This document shows, one piece after another, positions 56,109 through 64,000 of a stretch of 64,000 bases of DNA. Position 1 is the first letter of the stretch; every line of letters starts with the position of its first letter. Made by a program: the position numbers and the translations under genes. The stretch comes from Bradyrhizobium septentrionale (GTDB taxonomy: Bacteria; Pseudomonadota; Alphaproteobacteria; Rhizobiales; Xanthobacteraceae), in the NCBI RefSeq assembly GCF_011516645.4, contig NZ_CP088285.1, forward strand, positions 6,094,501 through 6,158,500. Direction: 5' to 3'. The notes below the pieces were generated by a model, which saw only the letters and a list, made by a program, of their open reading frames with translations, was not told where the DNA came from and searched no databases.

Positions 56109-57572
56109 TCAAGCCGCGTGGGCTGAATTGCGCAGCTGACCTGCCGCGATTTTCAGATCGTCGATAAAGCGCTGATATTCCAGCGCCTTGGCTTTCTCGT
56201 CGGGCAGCCGCAACAGATAGGACGGGTGCACGGTGACCAGCACCCTGGTTCCGTCATGGTCGATCAGACGGCCGCGGTTCCTGTTGATCGGCGTGATCTT
56301 GCCGAGCACGCTCTGCGCGGCCGTGGCGCCGAGCACCACCACGAGCTCCGGCTTGATGGCGGCGAGCTCGCGCTCATACCACTGCCGGCAGGCGCGGATC
56401 TCCGGCGTGCCCGGCTTCTGGTGCAGGCGGATCTTGCCGCGCGGCACGAACTTGAAGTGTTTCACCGCATTGGTGATGTAGACCTTGGCGCGCGCGATGC
56501 CGGCTTCCTCGAGCGCGCGATCGAGCATCTGCCCGGCGGGACCGACGAAGGGATGGCCGGCGAGATCTTCCTTGTCGCCGGGCTGTTCGCCCACCAGCAT
56601 CAGCGTCGCGCCTTGCGGCCCTTCGCCGAACACGGTTTGCGTCGCGTCCTTCCACAGCGGGCAGGCGCGGCAAGCGGCGGCCTCGTCGCGCAAGGCCGCG
56701 ATCGCGTCACGAGTGTGCTTGTCGTGAGTTTGCTTGTCCTGGGTATGCATGTCGCGAGCTTGCTTGCGGGGCATCGGCGTATCCTGCCGCTGCTGCGGCT
56801 CGGCGGCCTTGCGTGCGATGAAGGGGCCGCTGGTCATGCGCATGGCGTCTTCGATCAGAGGTTTAATGATCGAGTCCTCGGGCAGGTTCCTCCAATAGGC
56901 TTGCGGCATCTCCATCACTTTCAGCCGCGCCGGATTGAAGCGGCCGTTGTCATGACGCCGCCAGGCCTCCTCGAGCCGGTCCTCGCTCGGCACCTCGGAT
57001 TTGGCAACGCCCGGCGTGATCGAGATCGCGTGCCCGTCCCAATGTGCGCAGGCGTCGGGGGTCAGGATCGACCACGGCATGTCGGCGAAGCGGCCGGCGA
57101 AGAACGGCGCGGCATGCTCGACGATGCGATGCTCCGGCTCGAACCAGGCGACGTAATGTGCCTTCTGCTCGCGGCCGATCTCGCGGAAGCGCAGATGCGC
57201 GTGCATCCTGTCGATATCGCGATAGACCGCGCGCGCCATCGCGTGGGCCTCGGCGACGTCAGGATCATCGGTCGCGCTGAGCAGATCGTGATGGCTGCGC
57301 AGTCGCCACAGCAGGCGATAGAGCAGGGCGAAGCGCTCGTCATTGCGATGCAGGATCGCGGTCCTTGCCAGCTCGATGAATTTGGCTGTGACGTTGAACT
57401 GCGCCTGCGGCGTATCAGGCAATTCATTCACGCAGGATGCCGACAACAGTTCGTCGTCGCTACGTACCGTCCAGGTGACATCCGACGGCTTCACATCATT
57501 CAGCGCCAATCGCCGCGCGGCCTTGCGCCAGCCTTCGAAATCGGTGTCGTTGTCGAGCACGATGATACGCAT
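56109..57572 (-). CDS. DUF4130 domain fused to UdgX-family uracil-DNA-binding protein
   Basis: The start at 57572 (MRIIVLDNDTDFEGW) gives 487 residues. Residues about 1-265 are a DUF4130 (TIGR03915-type) domain, with LLYRLLWRLRSHHDLLS and the region around HYVAWFEPEHRIVEHAAPFF. A low-complexity linker (about 285-325, MPRKQARDMHTQDKQTHDKH) leads to the UdgX domain. This has CRACPLW for the 4Fe-4S cluster, GEQPGDKEDLAGHPFVGPAG, ITNAVKHFKF and KIRLHQKPGTPEI, with His384 at the place of the His that in UdgX bonds covalently to uracil-DNA. UdgX binds uracil in DNA irreversibly. It lies divergent from imuA across a LexA box, so SOS control is likely. Confidence 0.9.
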   Translation of the reverse strand: MRIIVLDNDTDFEGWRKAARRLALNDVKPSDVTWTVRSDDELLSASCVNELPDTPQAQFNVTAKFIELARTAILHRNDERFALLYRLLWRLRSHHDLLSATDDPDVAEAHAMARAVYRDIDRMHAHLRFREIGREQKAHYVAWFEPEHRIVEHAAPFFAGRFADMPWSILTPDACAHWDGHAISITPGVAKSEVPSEDRLEEAWRRHDNGRFNPARLKVMEMPQAYWRNLPEDSIIKPLIEDAMRMTSGPFIARKAAEPQQRQDTPMPRKQARDMHTQDKQTHDKHTRDAIAALRDEAAACRACPLWKDATQTVFGEGPQGATLMLVGEQPGDKEDLAGHPFVGPAGQMLDRALEEAGIARAKVYITNAVKHFKFVPRGKIRLHQKPGTPEIRACRQWYERELAAIKPELVVVLGATAAQSVLGKITPINRNRGRLIDHDGTRVLVTVHPSYLLRLPDEKAKALEYQRFIDDLKIAAGQLRNSAHAA

Positions 57573-57742
57573 GCGATTGCTCCGTTTCCCGTCACGCCGC
57601 CAGTTTCCGGGCTGTCGCGCCTGACGCCGCGGGCGAACCGGCGGCGTCCAGTTCGGCCGCTCCTGAATCCCATTGATTCCGCTCATGAATCACGGAGCTC
57701 ACCAATCCGATTGACTCTGCCGGCCCTGTTAGCTTTATATTA

Positions 57743-57757
57743 GAACATATCATGAAC
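57743..57757. promoter_or_regulatory. LexA (SOS) box, GAAC-N7-GAAC
   Basis: GAAC at 57743-57746 and 57754-57757 with a seven-base spacer is the exact reverse complement of GTTC-N7-GTTC, the direct-repeat LexA site of Alphaproteobacteria. It lies 74 bp before imuA and 171 bp before the divergent DUF4130-UdgX gene. It most probably represses imuA-imuB-dnaE2 and perhaps the other gene too. Confidence 0.9.
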
Positions 57758-57830
57758 AACTGAGCCTGTCCCTGGTTCTCTGTTCGGATCAGTGACGGCC
57801 TCAAATTTTGGACGGGAAGGAGCGGCGCAT

Positions 57831-58625
57831 ATGAACGGCGCACGCACGGGTACGCTTGCGTCTCTGCGCGGCAGCATCGCGCGCATCGAGGCGCCATCGG
57901 AGGCGGCGATGCCGAACTGCATTGCGCTCGGTCACACCAGCGCGGACGCGATGCTGCGCGGCGGGCTTGCGGCGGCCGCGCTGCACGAGGTGTTCGCGGC
58001 CGGCCATCAAAGCGGAGCGGCGACCGGTTTCATCGCGGGGCTTGCCGGACGGCTCTCAGCGCGCAAGCCGCTGGTCTGGGTGCGGCAGGATTTTTCCGAT
58101 CGCGAAAACGGCGCGCTGTCGATGCGCGGGCTCGCCGAGCTCGGCCTCGATCCGCGCCTGCTGGTCACGGTGCGCGCCGCCGATGTCGACAGCGCTCTGC
58201 GCACCGCGGCCGACGCGCTCGCTTGCGATGCGCTCGGCGCCGTCGTGCTCGAGGTCTGGGGCCATGCGCGCCAGCTCGATCTCGTCGCCAGCCGCAAATT
58301 GACCCTGGCCGCGCAAGCCTCCGGCGTTACCGCGCTGGTGCTGCGGATCGCGGCGACGGCGATCCCCTCGACCGCGGAGACGCGCTGGATCGTGCGCGCG
58401 GCGCATTCGCCGCCCGGCAATGCCGCAAGCGCCTGGGGCGCGCCGCGCTTCGACGCCGAACTCGTGCGCAATCGTCATGGCCCGGTCGGGCGATGGATCA
58501 TGGAATGGAAGTGTGATGAGTGCCAATTCAGTGAACCGTCGGCGTATCCTCAGCCTGTGGCTGCCACGCCTGCCCATCGACCGCATCAAGCGCAAGCTCG
58601 CGCAGGACATCGCCTCGCAAGCTGA
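57831..58625 (+). CDS. imuA: ImuA, SOS mutagenesis accessory protein
   Basis: ATG 57831 with GAAGGAG upstream gives 264 residues. The RecA/SulA-like core includes CIALGHTSADAMLRGGLAAAALHEVFA, PLVWVRQDFSDRENG and ALGAVVLEVWGHARQLDL. ImuA acts with ImuB and DnaE2 in error-prone repair of DNA damage. The conserved ending VRNRHGPVGRWIMEWKCDECQF lies before a tail that overlaps imuB by 110 bp in another frame, as in related cassettes. It is the first gene after the LexA box. Confidence 0.9.
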   Translation: MNGARTGTLASLRGSIARIEAPSEAAMPNCIALGHTSADAMLRGGLAAAALHEVFAAGHQSGAATGFIAGLAGRLSARKPLVWVRQDFSDRENGALSMRGLAELGLDPRLLVTVRAADVDSALRTAADALACDALGAVVLEVWGHARQLDLVASRKLTLAAQASGVTALVLRIAATAIPSTAETRWIVRAAHSPPGNAASAWGAPRFDAELVRNRHGPVGRWIMEWKCDECQFSEPSAYPQPVAATPAHRPHQAQARAGHRLAS

Positions 58626-60300
58626 TGCTCGGGACCACGTCTCGCAGAACGACACACGGGCGGTGGTAGGGCTCTCTCCCCCCTTGTGGGGGAGAGTTGG
58701 AGAGGGGGGTAGCCACGAGCACCGCCCGTGGGGCTCACCCCCCTCCCTAGCCCTCCCCCGCAAGGGGGGAGGGAACCGATCCGCTGATGCGTCCCTCACG
58801 AATGGGTTAGGCAGCAACGCGCCCAGCGTCGTCGTCGCAAAAGACCACAACGCGATCCTGCTGCAAGCGATCGACGACGCGGCGGTGCGGGCTGGGCTGT
58901 CGATCGGGCTGCCGCTCGCCAATGCGCGGGCGATCTGTCCGGAGCTCACGGTCTACGACGCCGATCCCGCCGCCGATCTGAAGACGCTGAACGACATCGC
59001 CGACTGGTGCGACCGCTTCACGCCGCTGGTCGCGCTCGATCCGCCTTACGGGCTGTTCCTCGACATCACCGGCTGCGCGCATCTGTTCGGCGGCGAGCGC
59101 ACGCTGCTGCAGATCGTGACCAATGCGCTGAGCCGGCGCGGCTTTGCTGTCAGCGCCGCCATTGCCGGCACCTCGATCGCGGCGCGCACGCTGACGCGTT
59201 ATACTTCCGGGCAGATCGTCGCCAGCGGCGCGGAAGCAGAGGCGGTCGGCCCGCTGCCGGTGTCGGCGCTCGGCGCCGATGGTGCTGTGACCACCGGCCT
59301 GCGCCGCGCCGGCTTGAAGACCATCGGCGATGTCGCCTCGCGCGCGCCGCACGAGATTTCTGCGCGGTTCGGCGCAGCCTTCACGACCTTGCTCGGTCAC
59401 GCGCTCGGGCAGGGCGATGCCCCGATCAGCCCGCGCAAGCCGCTGCCCGATTACATCGTCGAGAAGCGTTTCCCCGAGCCGGTCGTGACCGACACCGTGA
59501 TCGCGCTGACGTTACAAAGCCTCGCCAAGATGCTGGTGACGGCGATGGACAAGCAGGGCAAGGGCGCCCGGCAGCTGGAGGCGAGCTTCTTCCGCACCGA
59601 CGGCGCGGTGCGTGCGATCATGGTCGAGACCGGGCGGCCGGTGACGCGGCCCGAGATGATCGACCGCCTGTTCTGCGAGCGGCTCGATGCGCTCAATGAT
59701 CCCCTCGATCCCGGCTTCGGCTTCGATCTCATCCGCCTTGCCGCAGGGCGTACCGAGATCGTGGTGCAGCAGCAGCGCGATCTCGATACCACCGTGCACG
59801 ACAATGACGAGGTCTCGGCGCTGATCGACCGCATCGCCGCCCGCATCGGCGGAAAACGCGTCGTCGTGCATCTGCCGCTGGAGAGCCACATCCCCGAACG
59901 ATCCGCGCTCGCGCTGCCGGCGCAGCATCATTTGGCCGCGGCCAGCGCCGCCGCCTGGCCGGAACGCGCCGTCGGCGAGCCGCCGCTGCGGCCCTTAAGA
60001 CTATTCGAGCGGCCCGAACCCATCAAGGTGCCGTTCGCGAGTGTGCCCGACGGTCCGCCGCATCAATTCACTTGGCGGCGCGCGCAGCACGACGTGGTGC
60101 GGGTCGAAGGCCCCGAGCGCATCGCGATGGAATGGTGGAAGCAGGACGGCATGTCGCTGACGCGCGATTACTTCCGCGTCGAGGACGCCGAAGGCCAGCG
60201 CTTCTGGATCTTCCGCGACGGTCTCTACGAGAGTGAGCTGCGGGACGACAAGGGCAAGCCGCTGCCCGCCACCTGGTATGTGCACGGGCTGTTCGCATGA
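58516..60300 (+). CDS. imuB: ImuB, Y-family polymerase-like SOS protein with an in-frame repeat insertion
   Basis: ATG 58516 gives 594 residues, longer than the usual ImuB of about 500-530. The start RRRILSLWLPRLPIDRIKR is typical. The normal sequence resumes at APSVVVAKDHNAILLQAID and runs through LFLDITGCAHLFGGE and AIAGTSIAARTL. Between these parts, residues about 53-87 are encoded by a palindromic repeat (PPLWGRVGEGGSHEHRPWG and PRKGGGN). ImuB lacks polymerase activity and links ImuA and DnaE2 to the beta clamp. The C-terminal region ends LPATWYVHGLFA. The stop overlaps dnaE2 by 4 bp. Confidence 0.92.
   Translation: MSANSVNRRRILSLWLPRLPIDRIKRKLAQDIASQADARDHVSQNDTRAVVGLSPPLWGRVGEGGSHEHRPWGSPPSLALPRKGGGNRSADASLTNGLGSNAPSVVVAKDHNAILLQAIDDAAVRAGLSIGLPLANARAICPELTVYDADPAADLKTLNDIADWCDRFTPLVALDPPYGLFLDITGCAHLFGGERTLLQIVTNALSRRGFAVSAAIAGTSIAARTLTRYTSGQIVASGAEAEAVGPLPVSALGADGAVTTGLRRAGLKTIGDVASRAPHEISARFGAAFTTLLGHALGQGDAPISPRKPLPDYIVEKRFPEPVVTDTVIALTLQSLAKMLVTAMDKQGKGARQLEASFFRTDGAVRAIMVETGRPVTRPEMIDRLFCERLDALNDPLDPGFGFDLIRLAAGRTEIVVQQQRDLDTTVHDNDEVSALIDRIAARIGGKRVVVHLPLESHIPERSALALPAQHHLAAASAAAWPERAVGEPPLRPLRLFERPEPIKVPFASVPDGPPHQFTWRRAQHDVVRVEGPERIAMEWWKQDGMSLTRDYFRVEDAEGQRFWIFRDGLYESELRDDKGKPLPATWYVHGLFA
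58672..58776 (+). repeat. Palindromic repeat inserted in frame in imuB
   Basis: About 105 bp of C-rich and G-rich hairpins (CTCTCTCCCCCC...GGGGGAGAG, ACCCCCCTCC, CCTCCCCC...GGGGGGAGGG). The element is the same family as that in dnaE2 at 62886 and aligns with it over most of its length. It keeps the imuB reading frame open. Confidence 0.8.
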
Positions 60301-63300
60301 ATACGCCAACGCCTGATTATGCCGAGATCGGCATCACCAGCAATTTCTCCTTCCTGCGCGGCGGCTCCGATCCGCGCGCCTATGTGCATCAGGCGAGTGA
60401 ACTCGGGATTCCCGTGATCGGGCTTGCCGATCACAACACGCTGGCCGGCGTGGTGCGCGCCTGGAAGGAGCTCAACAGCGAGAAGGTCGCCCATCCGCCA
60501 AAACTTTTGATCGGCGCCCGCATCGTCTTCATCGACGGCACGCCCGACATCCTGGTCTATCCGCGCGACCGCGCCGCCTACGGCCGGCTGTGCCAGTTGC
60601 TGACCCGCGGCAAGCGCGGCGGCGGCATCGAGCGCATCGAGAAGGGGGATTGCCGGCTCGCTCTGTCCGATCTGCTCGACTTTGCAGAGGGCCAGCTTCT
60701 GGTGCTGGCGCTGCCGCATCGTTTCGACGCGGCTGACGCGCTCGATCTGCTCGCGCAACTCAAGGCAAGCGCCGCCGATGGCGTCTGGCTCGCCGCAAGC
60801 CTGCTCTATCGCGGTGACGACAGGCGCCGCCTGGCGCGGCTGCATGGTCTCGCCACTGATGCCGGTGTGTCGCTGCTCGCCACCAACGAGGTGCTCTATC
60901 ATCATCCCGCGCGCCGTCCGTTGCAGGACGTGCTGACCTGCATCCGCGAAAAGACCACGATCGAGGCTGTTGGCCGCAGGCTCGAGGCCAATGCCGAGCG
61001 GCATCTCAAGCCGGCGCATGAGATGATCAGGCTGTTCCGCGATCTCCCTGATGCGATCGCGGAAACCATGCGCTTCGCTGCACGCATCTCCTTCGCGCTC
61101 GACCAGCTCAAATATCAATATCCCGACGAGCCGGTGCCGCCGGGCAAGACCGCGCAGCAGCATCTGGAGGACCTCACCTGGGCCGGCGTCGACAAATATT
61201 TCGGCGGCGAGATCGACGAAAAACTTCGCACCACCCTGAACAAGGAGCTCGCGCTGATCGCCGAGCTGAAATACGCGCATTACTTCCTCACCGTGCATGA
61301 CATCGTGCACTATGCGCGCAGCCAGAACATCCTGTGCCAGGGGCGGGGGTCGGCGGCGAATTCGGCGGTCTGTTATGTGCTCGGCGTCACCTCGGTCGAT
61401 CCGACCAAGGTCGATCTGCTGTTCGAGCGCTTCATCTCCAAGGAGCGGCTGGAGCCGCCCGACATCGACGTCGATTTCGAGCATTCGCGGCGCGAGGAGG
61501 TGATGCAATATGTCTACCGCCGCTACGGACGGCATCGCGCGGCGATCATCGCCACCATCATCCATTATCGTCCGCGCAGCGCGATCCGCGACGTCGGCAA
61601 GGCGCTCGGGCTGACCGAGGACGTCACCGCGGCGCTCGCCGACACCGTGTGGGGCAGCTGGGGCAAGGGCCTCAACGACATGCAGGTGCGCCAGGCCGGG
61701 CTCGATCCCAAGAATGCGATGATCAACCTCGCGGTCGAGCTCGCCACCGAGCTGATCGAGTTTCCGCGCCATCTCTCGCAGCATGTCGGCGGCTATGTGC
61801 TGACCCAGGACCGGCTCGACACCTATGTGCCGATCGGCAACGCCGCGATGGACGACCGCACCTTCATCGAGTGGGACAAGGACGACGTCGACGCGCTTCA
61901 CATGATGAAGGTCGACGTGCTGGCGCTGGGCATGCTGACCTGCATCCGCAAATGCTTCGACCTGATCGCCGACCACAAGGGCGAACACTGGGAGCTCGCT
62001 TCGGTCCCGCAGGACGAAAAGGAAGTCTACGACATGCTGTGCCGCGGCGAGTCGCTCGGCGTGTTCCAGGTCGAGAGCCGCGCCCAGATGAACATGCTGC
62101 CGCGGTTGAGGCCGCGCACCTTCTACGATCTCGTCATCGAGGTCGCGATCGTCCGCCCCGGTCCGATCCAGGGCGACATGGTGCATCCCTATCTCAGGCG
62201 GCGGAACGGCCAGGAAAAGGTCAGCTATCCATCGCCGTCGCCGGACAAGGGCGACAAGGACGAACTCTACAATGTGCTGCACAAGACGCTCGGCGTGCCG
62301 CTATTCCAGGAGCAGGCGATGCGGATCGCGATCGAGGCGGCCCATTTCACCTCGGAGGAGGCCAACGGCCTGCGCCGCTCGATGGCGACCTTCCGCAACC
62401 TCGGCACCATCGGCAGCTATGAGGAGAAGCTGGTCGGCAACATGGTGGCGCGCGGCTACGATCCAGACTTCGCCCGCAGCTGCTTCGACCAGATCAAGGG
62501 TTTTGGCAGTTACGGCTTCCCGGAAAGCCATGCCGCGAGCTTTGCCCAGTTGGTCTACATCTCCTCATGGCTAAAGCACCATCATCCCGATGCGTTCTGC
62601 TGCGGCCTGCTCAACTCGCAGCCGATGGGCTTCTATGCCCCGGCGCAGATCGTCGGCGACGCCCGCAACAACGGCGTCACGGTGCGCGAGGTCGATGTCT
62701 CCCATAGCTTTGCGCAGAACACGCTGGAGGAGCGCGACGGGGAGCATTGCGCGGTACGGCTGGGCTTCCGCCAGATCGACGGGTTTCATTGGCTCGATGA
62801 GGATGAGGAGAGGTTGAAGGCCCAGCAGGCGCTGCGGAGTGCGCGAAGCGTAAACGTGTATGAGTCAGGGAAGCACGAATGGATGGGCTCTCTCCCCCCT
62901 TGTGGGGGAGAGTTGGAGAGAGGGGTAAGCCACGACCACCGCCCGTGCGGCTTACCCCTCTCCCTAACCTCGAGAGCGAGCTTCGCTCGCCTCGGACCCC
63001 ACAAGGGGGGAGGGAACCCGCCCACCTCCCGCGCGGCCTTGGACGGGGAGAAAGACTGGGCCGACCGCATCGTCGCCGCGCGCAACCGCCGGCCCTTCAC
63101 CTCGCTGGAAGATTTTGCCCGCGACACCGCTCTGCCCAAGCGCGCGCTGATCCTGCTCGCGGATGCCGATGCGTTCCGCTCGCTCGGGCTCGACCGCCGC
63201 GAGGCGCTGTGGGCGGTGCGGCGGCTACCCGACGACGTGCCGCTGCCGCTGTTCGAGGCCGCCACCGCGCGCGAGCAGCCGGATGAAGGCGCAAAACCGC

Positions 63301-63866
63301 TGCCGGAGATGCCGCGCCCCGAGCAGGTGGTCGCCGACTATCAGACCATCCGCCTGTCGCTGAAGGGCCATCCGATGGAATTTTTGCGCGAGATGTTCAC
63401 CAGGGAGCGCGTGGTCGCCTGCCACACCATCAACCAAAGCAACGACCGCCGCCGCGTCAGCTGCGCCGGCGTCGTGCTGGTGCGGCAGCGGCCGGGCAGC
63501 GCCAAGGGCGTCGTGTTCATGACGCTGGAGGACGAGAGTGGCATCGCCAACATCGTGGTGTGGCCGAAGGTGATGGAGCAATATCGGAAAGAAGTAATGG
63601 GCGCGCGCCTGATCCTGGTCGAGGGCTACATCCAGAGCAGCCCGGAGGGCGTCACGCATCTGGTGGCGCAGCGCATGACCGACCGCTCCCACGATCTGAT
63701 CGGCCTCGCCAACGAATCCCTCAGTCGCAAGCATCCGGTGCCGGCAGGCCCGGCGCTGATCGAGCCGCTCAACGACGACCGTCGCGACCACGGCGATAAC
63801 TCGCCGCAAAAGATCCGCCACCCCCGCAACGTCCGCATCCTGCCGCCGTCACGCGATTTTCATTGA
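60297..63866 (+). CDS. dnaE2: DnaE2, error-prone DNA polymerase III alpha subunit, with an in-frame repeat insertion
   Basis: A 1189-residue C-family polymerase, longer than the usual 1070-1120. The PHP domain begins SNFSFLRGGSDPRAYVHQA and GLADHNTLAGVV. The catalytic Asp residues are D389, D391 and D393 in PPDIDVDFEHSRREEV. The OB-fold at the C-terminus has VSCAGVVLVRQRPGSAKG. Residues about 864-908 come from the palindromic repeat (SLPPCGGELERGVSHDHRP and HKGGGN). The normal family text resumes at DRIVAARNRRPFTSLEDF. It copies across DNA damage with ImuA and ImuB. It starts in an ATGA overlap with imuB, so the three genes form one SOS operon. Confidence 0.94.
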   Translation: MNTPTPDYAEIGITSNFSFLRGGSDPRAYVHQASELGIPVIGLADHNTLAGVVRAWKELNSEKVAHPPKLLIGARIVFIDGTPDILVYPRDRAAYGRLCQLLTRGKRGGGIERIEKGDCRLALSDLLDFAEGQLLVLALPHRFDAADALDLLAQLKASAADGVWLAASLLYRGDDRRRLARLHGLATDAGVSLLATNEVLYHHPARRPLQDVLTCIREKTTIEAVGRRLEANAERHLKPAHEMIRLFRDLPDAIAETMRFAARISFALDQLKYQYPDEPVPPGKTAQQHLEDLTWAGVDKYFGGEIDEKLRTTLNKELALIAELKYAHYFLTVHDIVHYARSQNILCQGRGSAANSAVCYVLGVTSVDPTKVDLLFERFISKERLEPPDIDVDFEHSRREEVMQYVYRRYGRHRAAIIATIIHYRPRSAIRDVGKALGLTEDVTAALADTVWGSWGKGLNDMQVRQAGLDPKNAMINLAVELATELIEFPRHLSQHVGGYVLTQDRLDTYVPIGNAAMDDRTFIEWDKDDVDALHMMKVDVLALGMLTCIRKCFDLIADHKGEHWELASVPQDEKEVYDMLCRGESLGVFQVESRAQMNMLPRLRPRTFYDLVIEVAIVRPGPIQGDMVHPYLRRRNGQEKVSYPSPSPDKGDKDELYNVLHKTLGVPLFQEQAMRIAIEAAHFTSEEANGLRRSMATFRNLGTIGSYEEKLVGNMVARGYDPDFARSCFDQIKGFGSYGFPESHAASFAQLVYISSWLKHHHPDAFCCGLLNSQPMGFYAPAQIVGDARNNGVTVREVDVSHSFAQNTLEERDGEHCAVRLGFRQIDGFHWLDEDEERLKAQQALRSARSVNVYESGKHEWMGSLPPCGGELERGVSHDHRPCGLPLSLTSRASFARLGPHKGGGNPPTSRAALDGEKDWADRIVAARNRRPFTSLEDFARDTALPKRALILLADADAFRSLGLDRREALWAVRRLPDDVPLPLFEAATAREQPDEGAKPLPEMPRPEQVVADYQTIRLSLKGHPMEFLREMFTRERVVACHTINQSNDRRRVSCAGVVLVRQRPGSAKGVVFMTLEDESGIANIVVWPKVMEQYRKEVMGARLILVEGYIQSSPEGVTHLVAQRMTDRSHDLIGLANESLSRKHPVPAGPALIEPLNDDRRDHGDNSPQKIRHPRNVRILPPSRDFH
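62886..63018 (+). repeat. Palindromic repeat inserted in frame in dnaE2
   Basis: About 133 bp, same family as the imuB insertion. It has the same C-rich and G-rich hairpin arms, plus an extra hairpin (GCGAGC-TTC-GCTCGC near 62975) that the imuB copy lacks. It leaves the dnaE2 frame open. Confidence 0.8.
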
Positions 63867-63879
63867 GGGTCGAGCTACG

Positions 63880-64000
63880 GCGACGCTCTCTCACCGTCAC
63901 TCTGAGGAGGCCGCGGAGCGGCCGTCTCGAAGGGTCGACGGCCCCGACTTTCTCCGCGCGGTTGTAGGTGGGCCGCGCATCCTTCGAGACCCGCGCGATG
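63880..64000. repeat. Dispersed Bradyrhizobium-type repeat at the window edge, partial
   Basis: After the dnaE2 stop the sequence holds CCGCGGAGCGGCCG, GTCTCGAAGG and, further on, its complement CCTTCGAGAC within GGGCCGCGCATCCTTCGAGAC. This is a further dispersed repeat type of these genomes, with long inverted arms. The right end may continue outside the window. No gene is seen here. Confidence 0.6.

Follow-up and report, generated by a model that had tools for sequence, protein, structure and literature searches.

That genes can contain palindromic repeats has been known since the case of Rickettsia. When such repeats recur in DNA repair genes, are these genes targeted, or are they merely tolerant? 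This question was open before, although Di Nocera et al. 2013 (PMC3733652), in the part of the paper used here, describe in-frame REPs in DnaE2 and in other genes of replication and repair, and set a neutral role of REPs in loops against a mutator effect. We met the question in a 64,000-nucleotide stretch of the Bradyrhizobium septentrionale genome (hereafter, the window), where an earlier note described two copies of one palindromic repeat within two genes of an SOS operon. A site hit by several unrelated repeat families, together with an uninserted paralogue, empty relatives and flipped copies, makes the choice between targeting and tolerance testable.

The genes concerned lie in the order imuA-imuB-dnaE2 and the DnaE2 belongs to the error-prone subfamily, as in an ImuA-ImuB-DnaE2 mutasome, with the ImuA profile score below its cut-off (Table 1). 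A Pfam search of the imuA ORF gave no match, and the name ImuB is used because of the operon context, Pfam itself giving IMS. Upstream lies GTTC-N7-GTTC, which we take to be the LexA box form of alphaproteobacteria; as the window contains one match against 1.51 expected by chance, it is the position that speaks for it. Adjoining the operon and divergent from it, a gene at 56109-57686 (minus strand) encodes a UdgX-family uracil-DNA binding protein fused to a TIGR03915 repair domain.

Table 1. Operon genes and repeat elements in the window.
Feature	Position	Strand	Basis or remark
GTTC-N7-GTTC, putative LexA box	57743..57757	-	73 bases 5′ of imuA
imuA	57831..58625	+	NCBIfam NF033429 ImuA, 38.8 bits, under cut-off 150; place 5′ of imuB and dnaE2
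imuB, inactive Y-family polymerase subunit of mutasome	58516..60300	+	Pfam IMS, 37.6 bits, above cut-off 23.2
Family A element in frame in imuB	58670..58799	+	Palindrome 58670-58777; right outer end (ATGCGTCCCTCAC) to 58799
dnaE2, error-prone DNA polymerase	60297..63866	+	NCBIfam NF004225, 1568.8 bits, above cut-off 939
Former site of CGTC-type REP head, decayed beyond pattern	62829..62863	+	Left flank homologous to L044 and L046, which keep the head
Family A element in frame in dnaE2, forward orientation	62864..63018	+	Palindrome 62886-63018, outer end at left
Nested 27-base palindrome within A element of dnaE2	62970..62996	+	Found in other inserts too

The two elements, which we assign to family A, are both strong palindromes, with inverted arms 83-90% complementary and fold z-scores of -9.4 and -8.2, none of 200 shuffles being as stable. 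Much of the earlier description of them holds: the dnaE2 frame is open throughout and contains SLPPCGGELERG...KGGGN, the imuB copy is of the same DNA family (92% identity over query bases 1-84), a one-base difference separates the copies (the alignment gives GGTAAGCC versus GGT-AGCC), and their first halves are translated in different frames, a split that recurs across genomes. The 133-base dnaE2 palindrome also stands as described, but its left limit is not that of the element, which runs to about 62864. Specifically, an outer end resembling GTGAGGTGAGCAC lies 24 nt before the dnaE2 hairpin. Of 29 half-elements in this genome, 10 have such an end at a distance of 23-24 nt, compared with 4 of 580 shuffles. 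GTAG REPs have an unpaired GTAG at one end, and family A does not; because its GTAG is internal and paired in imuB, reads GTAAG in dnaE2, and its recurrent outer end is GTGAGGTGAGCAC, we do not class it as a GTAG REP. A pattern scan for one hairpin form was too narrow, matching the genome just three times. An Rfam search of 57000-64000 returned five matches at E up to 0.1, all to animal microRNA hairpins far under gathering scores, which we regard as chance palindrome matches, and we set aside an RNA reading of the element (terminator or attenuator), which lies within two long open frames.

To see how the DnaE2 site varies, DnaE2 residues 789-1067 were compared with 265 genomes of the genus; 262 matched, and the best 120 of these plus the window make up the 121 genomes referred to below as the best-match set. 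Between fixed anchors the DnaE2 segment is 24 amino acids long in 5 of the 121 and 30-104 in 116, a count that is possibly an overestimate, as choosing the best 120 of 262 matches favours occupied sites. In a less selected check by family-wide search, nine of ten further genus members gave a split match at this site and one (G076) an unbroken match. By rough pattern classes, a few of them weak (for example L112), the inserts of the best-match set fall into family C (60), A (26), B (20) and D (10), with five genomes having none. The nested 27-base palindrome of the window's dnaE2 element is present in five of the best-match dnaE2 inserts, the window's included, and, in either orientation, in 6 of 98 extracted imuB segments.

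Family C has the CGTC tag and a stem beginning AT that define CGTC REPs. Such REPs also have stems of 8-9 bp, loops of 4-5 bases and head-to-head dimers. In the family C insert of L119, ATTCCGGG and CCCGGAAT are 8 bp and a second unit faces the first; the loop is longer, which PMC3733652, as far as consulted, allows for Bradyrhizobium CGTC-1. The CGTC head TCGTCATTCCGGG sits at one same base in 81 of the 121 best-match inserts and at another base in three, against random hits to the pattern in 19 of 2420 shuffles, and the same-base head is retained in 17 of 20 B, 6 of 10 D and 6 of 26 A inserts of this set. Because the head occupies one base across families, we take the CGTC REP to be the earliest layer still visible, with A, B and D added later. 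This alters the idea that the window's two copies are two rare events in one operon: they did not enter two empty genes, since in most of the genus the dnaE2 site was already occupied by the older REP.

Could one old insertion, inherited by the genus and changed by sequence drift, account for everything? The shared base of the CGTC head is what it would produce, and for the oldest layer it is true. However, A, B and D differ from one another as DNA, sister genomes do not carry the same family (L042 has A where L108 has C; L043 has A where L105 has B), five genomes of the best-match set are empty, and other genera of the family have A-like elements, mostly in the opposite orientation, or other repeats at the same site. 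As a full account the single insertion is already refuted, and we consider it extremely improbable.

A second possibility is that these are decaying genes or assembly artefacts. Individual cases fit: the imuB insert loses its frame in L103 and contains Ns in L065, and in L064 (genome G125) one base is deleted from the dnaE2 insert, which also contains a stop, and imuB goes out of frame in its insert, so that either both genes are broken inside their repeats or the assembly is in error at the palindromes. Yet the frame is open in 120 of the 121 dnaE2 inserts of the best-match set, and the cores of both genes are under strong purifying selection, with dN/dS of 0.10 for dnaE2 (410 pairs) and 0.14 for imuB (41 pairs) and no loss of such selection seen in either core. 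Decay or artefact is the least credible of the explanations that we weighed.

The imuB loop is less often occupied. Among the 114 best-match genomes in which it could be classified, 49 have it filled and 65 have no repeat; the remaining seven of the 121 were left out because the stretch ends short of imuB (four), the frame is lost in the insert (L064 and L103) or Ns intervene (L065). The 49 repeats comprise A (15), B (15), E (11), A plus B (6), B plus D (1) and one other. The imuB loop of L087 holds a further repeat family (YPSPREAVGREGRSEAEARVGG).

Where else in these proteins do inserts occur? In full-length alignments of the best-match set, inserts of at least 20 amino acids are found at a single main site in 108 of 121 DnaE2 and in 51 of 119 ImuB, with a few more of the same DnaE2 segment falling in adjacent gaps of the alignment; elsewhere they occur in single genomes only. 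DnaE2 has a second, smaller site: family E, 47 bases long, lies in frame at one residue of the DnaE2 PHP domain in 4 of 80 named genomes (L167, L168, L183 and L212), and a copy ends just 5′ of the dnaE2 start in 4 of the 80 (L163, L168, L179 and L180); L168 has both, the other three pre-start genomes only the latter. In the essential paralogue DnaE1 the corresponding place is free of inserts in all 94 full-length matches, which measure 654-663 nt versus 660 (98 genomes were searched, two giving fragments and two nothing).

Outside the genus, the DnaE2 site of distant alphaproteobacteria is a plain short hairpin in all 29 loci read (L309-L337), and in other genera of the family (L338-L367) it is a short non-repeat loop apart from noted exceptions. 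Twelve other-genus loci picked for split matches (L368-L379) carry repeats at this same site: reverse family A scores best in seven (L368, L369, L371 and L375-L378) and forward family A in L372, another CGTC-like palindrome is present in L373 and L374, and another repeat in L370 and L379. A family F that we had set apart in two other genera was abandoned, family A in the opposite orientation accounting for most of its copies. L381, from another genus of the family, carries an insert about 15 residues further downstream in DnaE2 than usual.

The earlier note had suggested modelling DnaE2 to see if the insert is in a loop, and in the model it is: AlphaFold places residues 859-916, with pLDDT below 50, between helices 835-856 and 921-931. 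The model shows the insert as a predicted disordered excursion from the helix-hairpin-helix; the predicted ImuB structure (pTM 0.26) is too poor to place its loop. Pooled over inserts, dN/dS is 0.70 in dnaE2 and 0.94 in imuB, which is nearly neutral, bearing in mind that the pairs are not independent and that a palindrome constrains its own substitutions. With inserts concentrated at one site per gene and the DnaE2 insert modelled as disordered, the tolerance of loop insertions that had been proposed is supported; the proteins presumably still work. What is conserved is the DNA element rather than one peptide, again as proposed: the insert is nearly neutral and the cores conserved, frames differ between the two genes, and flipped copies encode another peptide.

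These data also bear on an adaptive explanation, in which inserts at the modelled meeting place of DnaE2 and ImuB tune the mutasome and selection for mutation rate acts on the variants. In a published model (PMC12926913, in the part consulted) the (HhH)2 region of DnaE2 forms an interface with the ImuB thumb, REP insertions have been speculated to make mutators (PMC3733652, likewise), both partners carry inserts, and the families turn over fast. On the other hand, the insert peptide is nearly neutral and predicted to be disordered; its sequence, length and orientation vary between close relatives; and five of the 121 best-match genomes do without it. We consider such tuning unlikely.

Frame and orientation are almost uniform within each family and site. 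Within the best-match set, 20 of the 26 A copies in dnaE2 have their first arm in one frame (one is in another frame and five are unmatched by the pattern), and 19 of the 21 A copies in imuB have it in a frame different from dnaE2's. The 24 full dnaE2 A copies of this set comprise 19 forward and five inverted (L054, L055, L061, L062 and L063), whereas the 21 imuB A copies are forward in 17 and unclear in four, none being inverted. Against the reverse complement, the inverted dnaE2 copies agree at 105-109 of 111 bases, and their flanks on both sides are like those of forward copies. When re-inverted, L054 is one base off L049, L056 and L057; its left flank most closely resembles that of the window. 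L061-L063 have the same right flank and may go back to one event, so that at least two in-place flips of the A element in dnaE2 are likely, judging from these sequences. Spanning 111 bases, a flip keeps the frame and changes the predicted peptide. The flipping invites a bolder idea, that the A element is a reversible coding switch: arm recombination would flip 37 codons of a mutator polymerase, in frame and near the modelled ImuB contact, and the population would hold DnaE2 forms of different mutagenic activity. We regard this as improbable.

On a core FastTree the insert family changes at least 41 times in dnaE2 and at least 32 times in imuB, parsimony figures that must not be taken as insertion counts. 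The near-uniformity of orientation and frame per family and site suggests few entries and exchange rather than many entries, and much of the family turnover is thus probably exchange of existing inserts, not new entry. The window's own imuB insert may be an instance: its left flank is typical of family B carriers whereas its body and right flank are those of A, as recombination between alleles would produce.

Is there, then, a special link to SOS genes, as the earlier note had raised? We sampled the window's own genome in 40 blocks of 20 kb, of which 39 were used (one lay inside the window), plus the window, giving 844,000 bases and 670 genes from a home-made caller whose calls and thresholds are rough. 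Among 44 repeat places, 29 are intergenic, one is at an edge and 14 are in or at ORFs, namely the window's dnaE2 and imuB, ten ORF starts, L268 and L280. In these 844 kb there is no secure in-gene copy besides dnaE2 and imuB, L280 being possible. In the same genome, the helicase gene hrpB (L307 505-3036, minus strand, near C2:2316958) contains an in-frame half A element. A DUF559 gene in L268 (6859-7329, minus strand) has an A element close to its 3′ end, which would lengthen the C-terminus.

The same scan was applied to the 80 named loci, which total 1.06 Mb with 702 called genes and many of which come from assemblies also among the 120. It found 135 repeat places: 83 labelled dnaE2, 34 labelled imuB, 14 intergenic, four at ORF ends and none inside any other called gene. 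The mutasome genes do stand out here, 117 of 135 places being labelled dnaE2 or imuB (four of these just before the dnaE2 start), in loci that share ancestry and were selected for holding dnaE2. A family B peptide searched against 60 genomes returned 30 loci, including four dnaE2, three imuB and one indolepyruvate ferredoxin oxidoreductase family protein (L408); three further genomes have an in-frame family B copy in an open frame of similar length (~1240 aa). We had taken these ~1240-aa frames for one gene in five genomes and dropped this, as that of G010 is dnaE2 (4.3 kb from imuB) and that of L408 the oxidoreductase. A family C peptide gave 27 readable loci. Ten of them are dnaE2, a proportion favoured by a query taken from dnaE2, and by the score used none of the others has coding flanks on both sides.

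That elements prefer mutasome genes, for instance by being drawn to the operon or its hairpins, would agree with the share of places falling in dnaE2 and imuB, with the family E copies in the PHP loop and before the dnaE2 start, and with nesting into existing palindromes. A gene-wide bias, however, leaves the near-single site per gene unexplained, and the in-frame copies in hrpB and in a relative's indolepyruvate ferredoxin oxidoreductase argue against an SOS-only link: they show that tolerance is not unique to mutasome genes. With these copies and the older REP at the dnaE2 site, a special link to SOS genes is not supported. We think that target bias is improbable as well.

The best-supported reading, to which we give a probability of about three in four, is that a tolerant loop serves as a landing pad on which palindromes nest, are exchanged and are flipped. 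Extra residues would do little harm in the first helix-hairpin-helix hairpin of DnaE2 or in the loop after the first helix of ImuB, so that at least four short palindromic repeat families (A, B, C, which is the CGTC REP, and D) could enter these loops, with E entering imuB and the DnaE2 PHP domain. Entered repeats would stay only if open and in frame, their predicted translation being a disordered, nearly neutral peptide. In the DnaE2 of most of the genus the CGTC REP would have come first, with A, B and D then nesting in it or replacing it; later, whole inserts would have been swapped between lineages by recombination, and the A element flipped in place through recombination of its two inverted arms. 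Of this, the data show the recurrence, the restriction to a site, the nesting, the near-neutrality and, as a state of the sequence, the inversion. Neutral inserts would make the loop a naturally permissive site, and non-neutral ones would mean that mobile repeats tune mutation. The DnaE2 and ImuB loops mark a spot where mobile DNA can live within a presumably working gene.

The kind of insertion is already known, REPs in DnaE2 having been described in 2013; for a multi-family hotspot in DnaE2 or ImuB, or for inversion of such an insert, we found no precedent in a limited literature search (one library, chosen terms). The nearest relatives are the CGTC- and GTAG-tagged REPs of PMC3733652, which share with our case in-frame palindromes in DnaE2, CGTC REPs in Bradyrhizobium and a proposed neutrality in loops or linkers. 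Families A, B and D, unlike those, are not tagged REPs, and the succession of several families at one DnaE2 site, the ImuB loop, the test of near-neutrality and in-place inversion are found only here, as far as the paper was compared. Br-REP2 of B. japonicum USDA 110 (PMC5082802) has the end CCGGAATGA in common with the family C core ATTCCGGG...CCCGGAAT, although Br-REP1 and Br-REP2 are described, in the part consulted, from intergenic regions, unlike family C in dnaE2. Rickettsia palindromic elements, as treated in the part of PMC3733652 used here, likewise place palindromic DNA in frame in many genes, a likeness in description; here, in contrast, one loop is reused by several families. Finally, bacterial MITEs are small non-autonomous inverted-repeat elements with defined ends (PMC10969869, from the part consulted). 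A related transposase and target-site duplication would mark them as well; family A, with its recurrent outer end, may resemble them in its ends.
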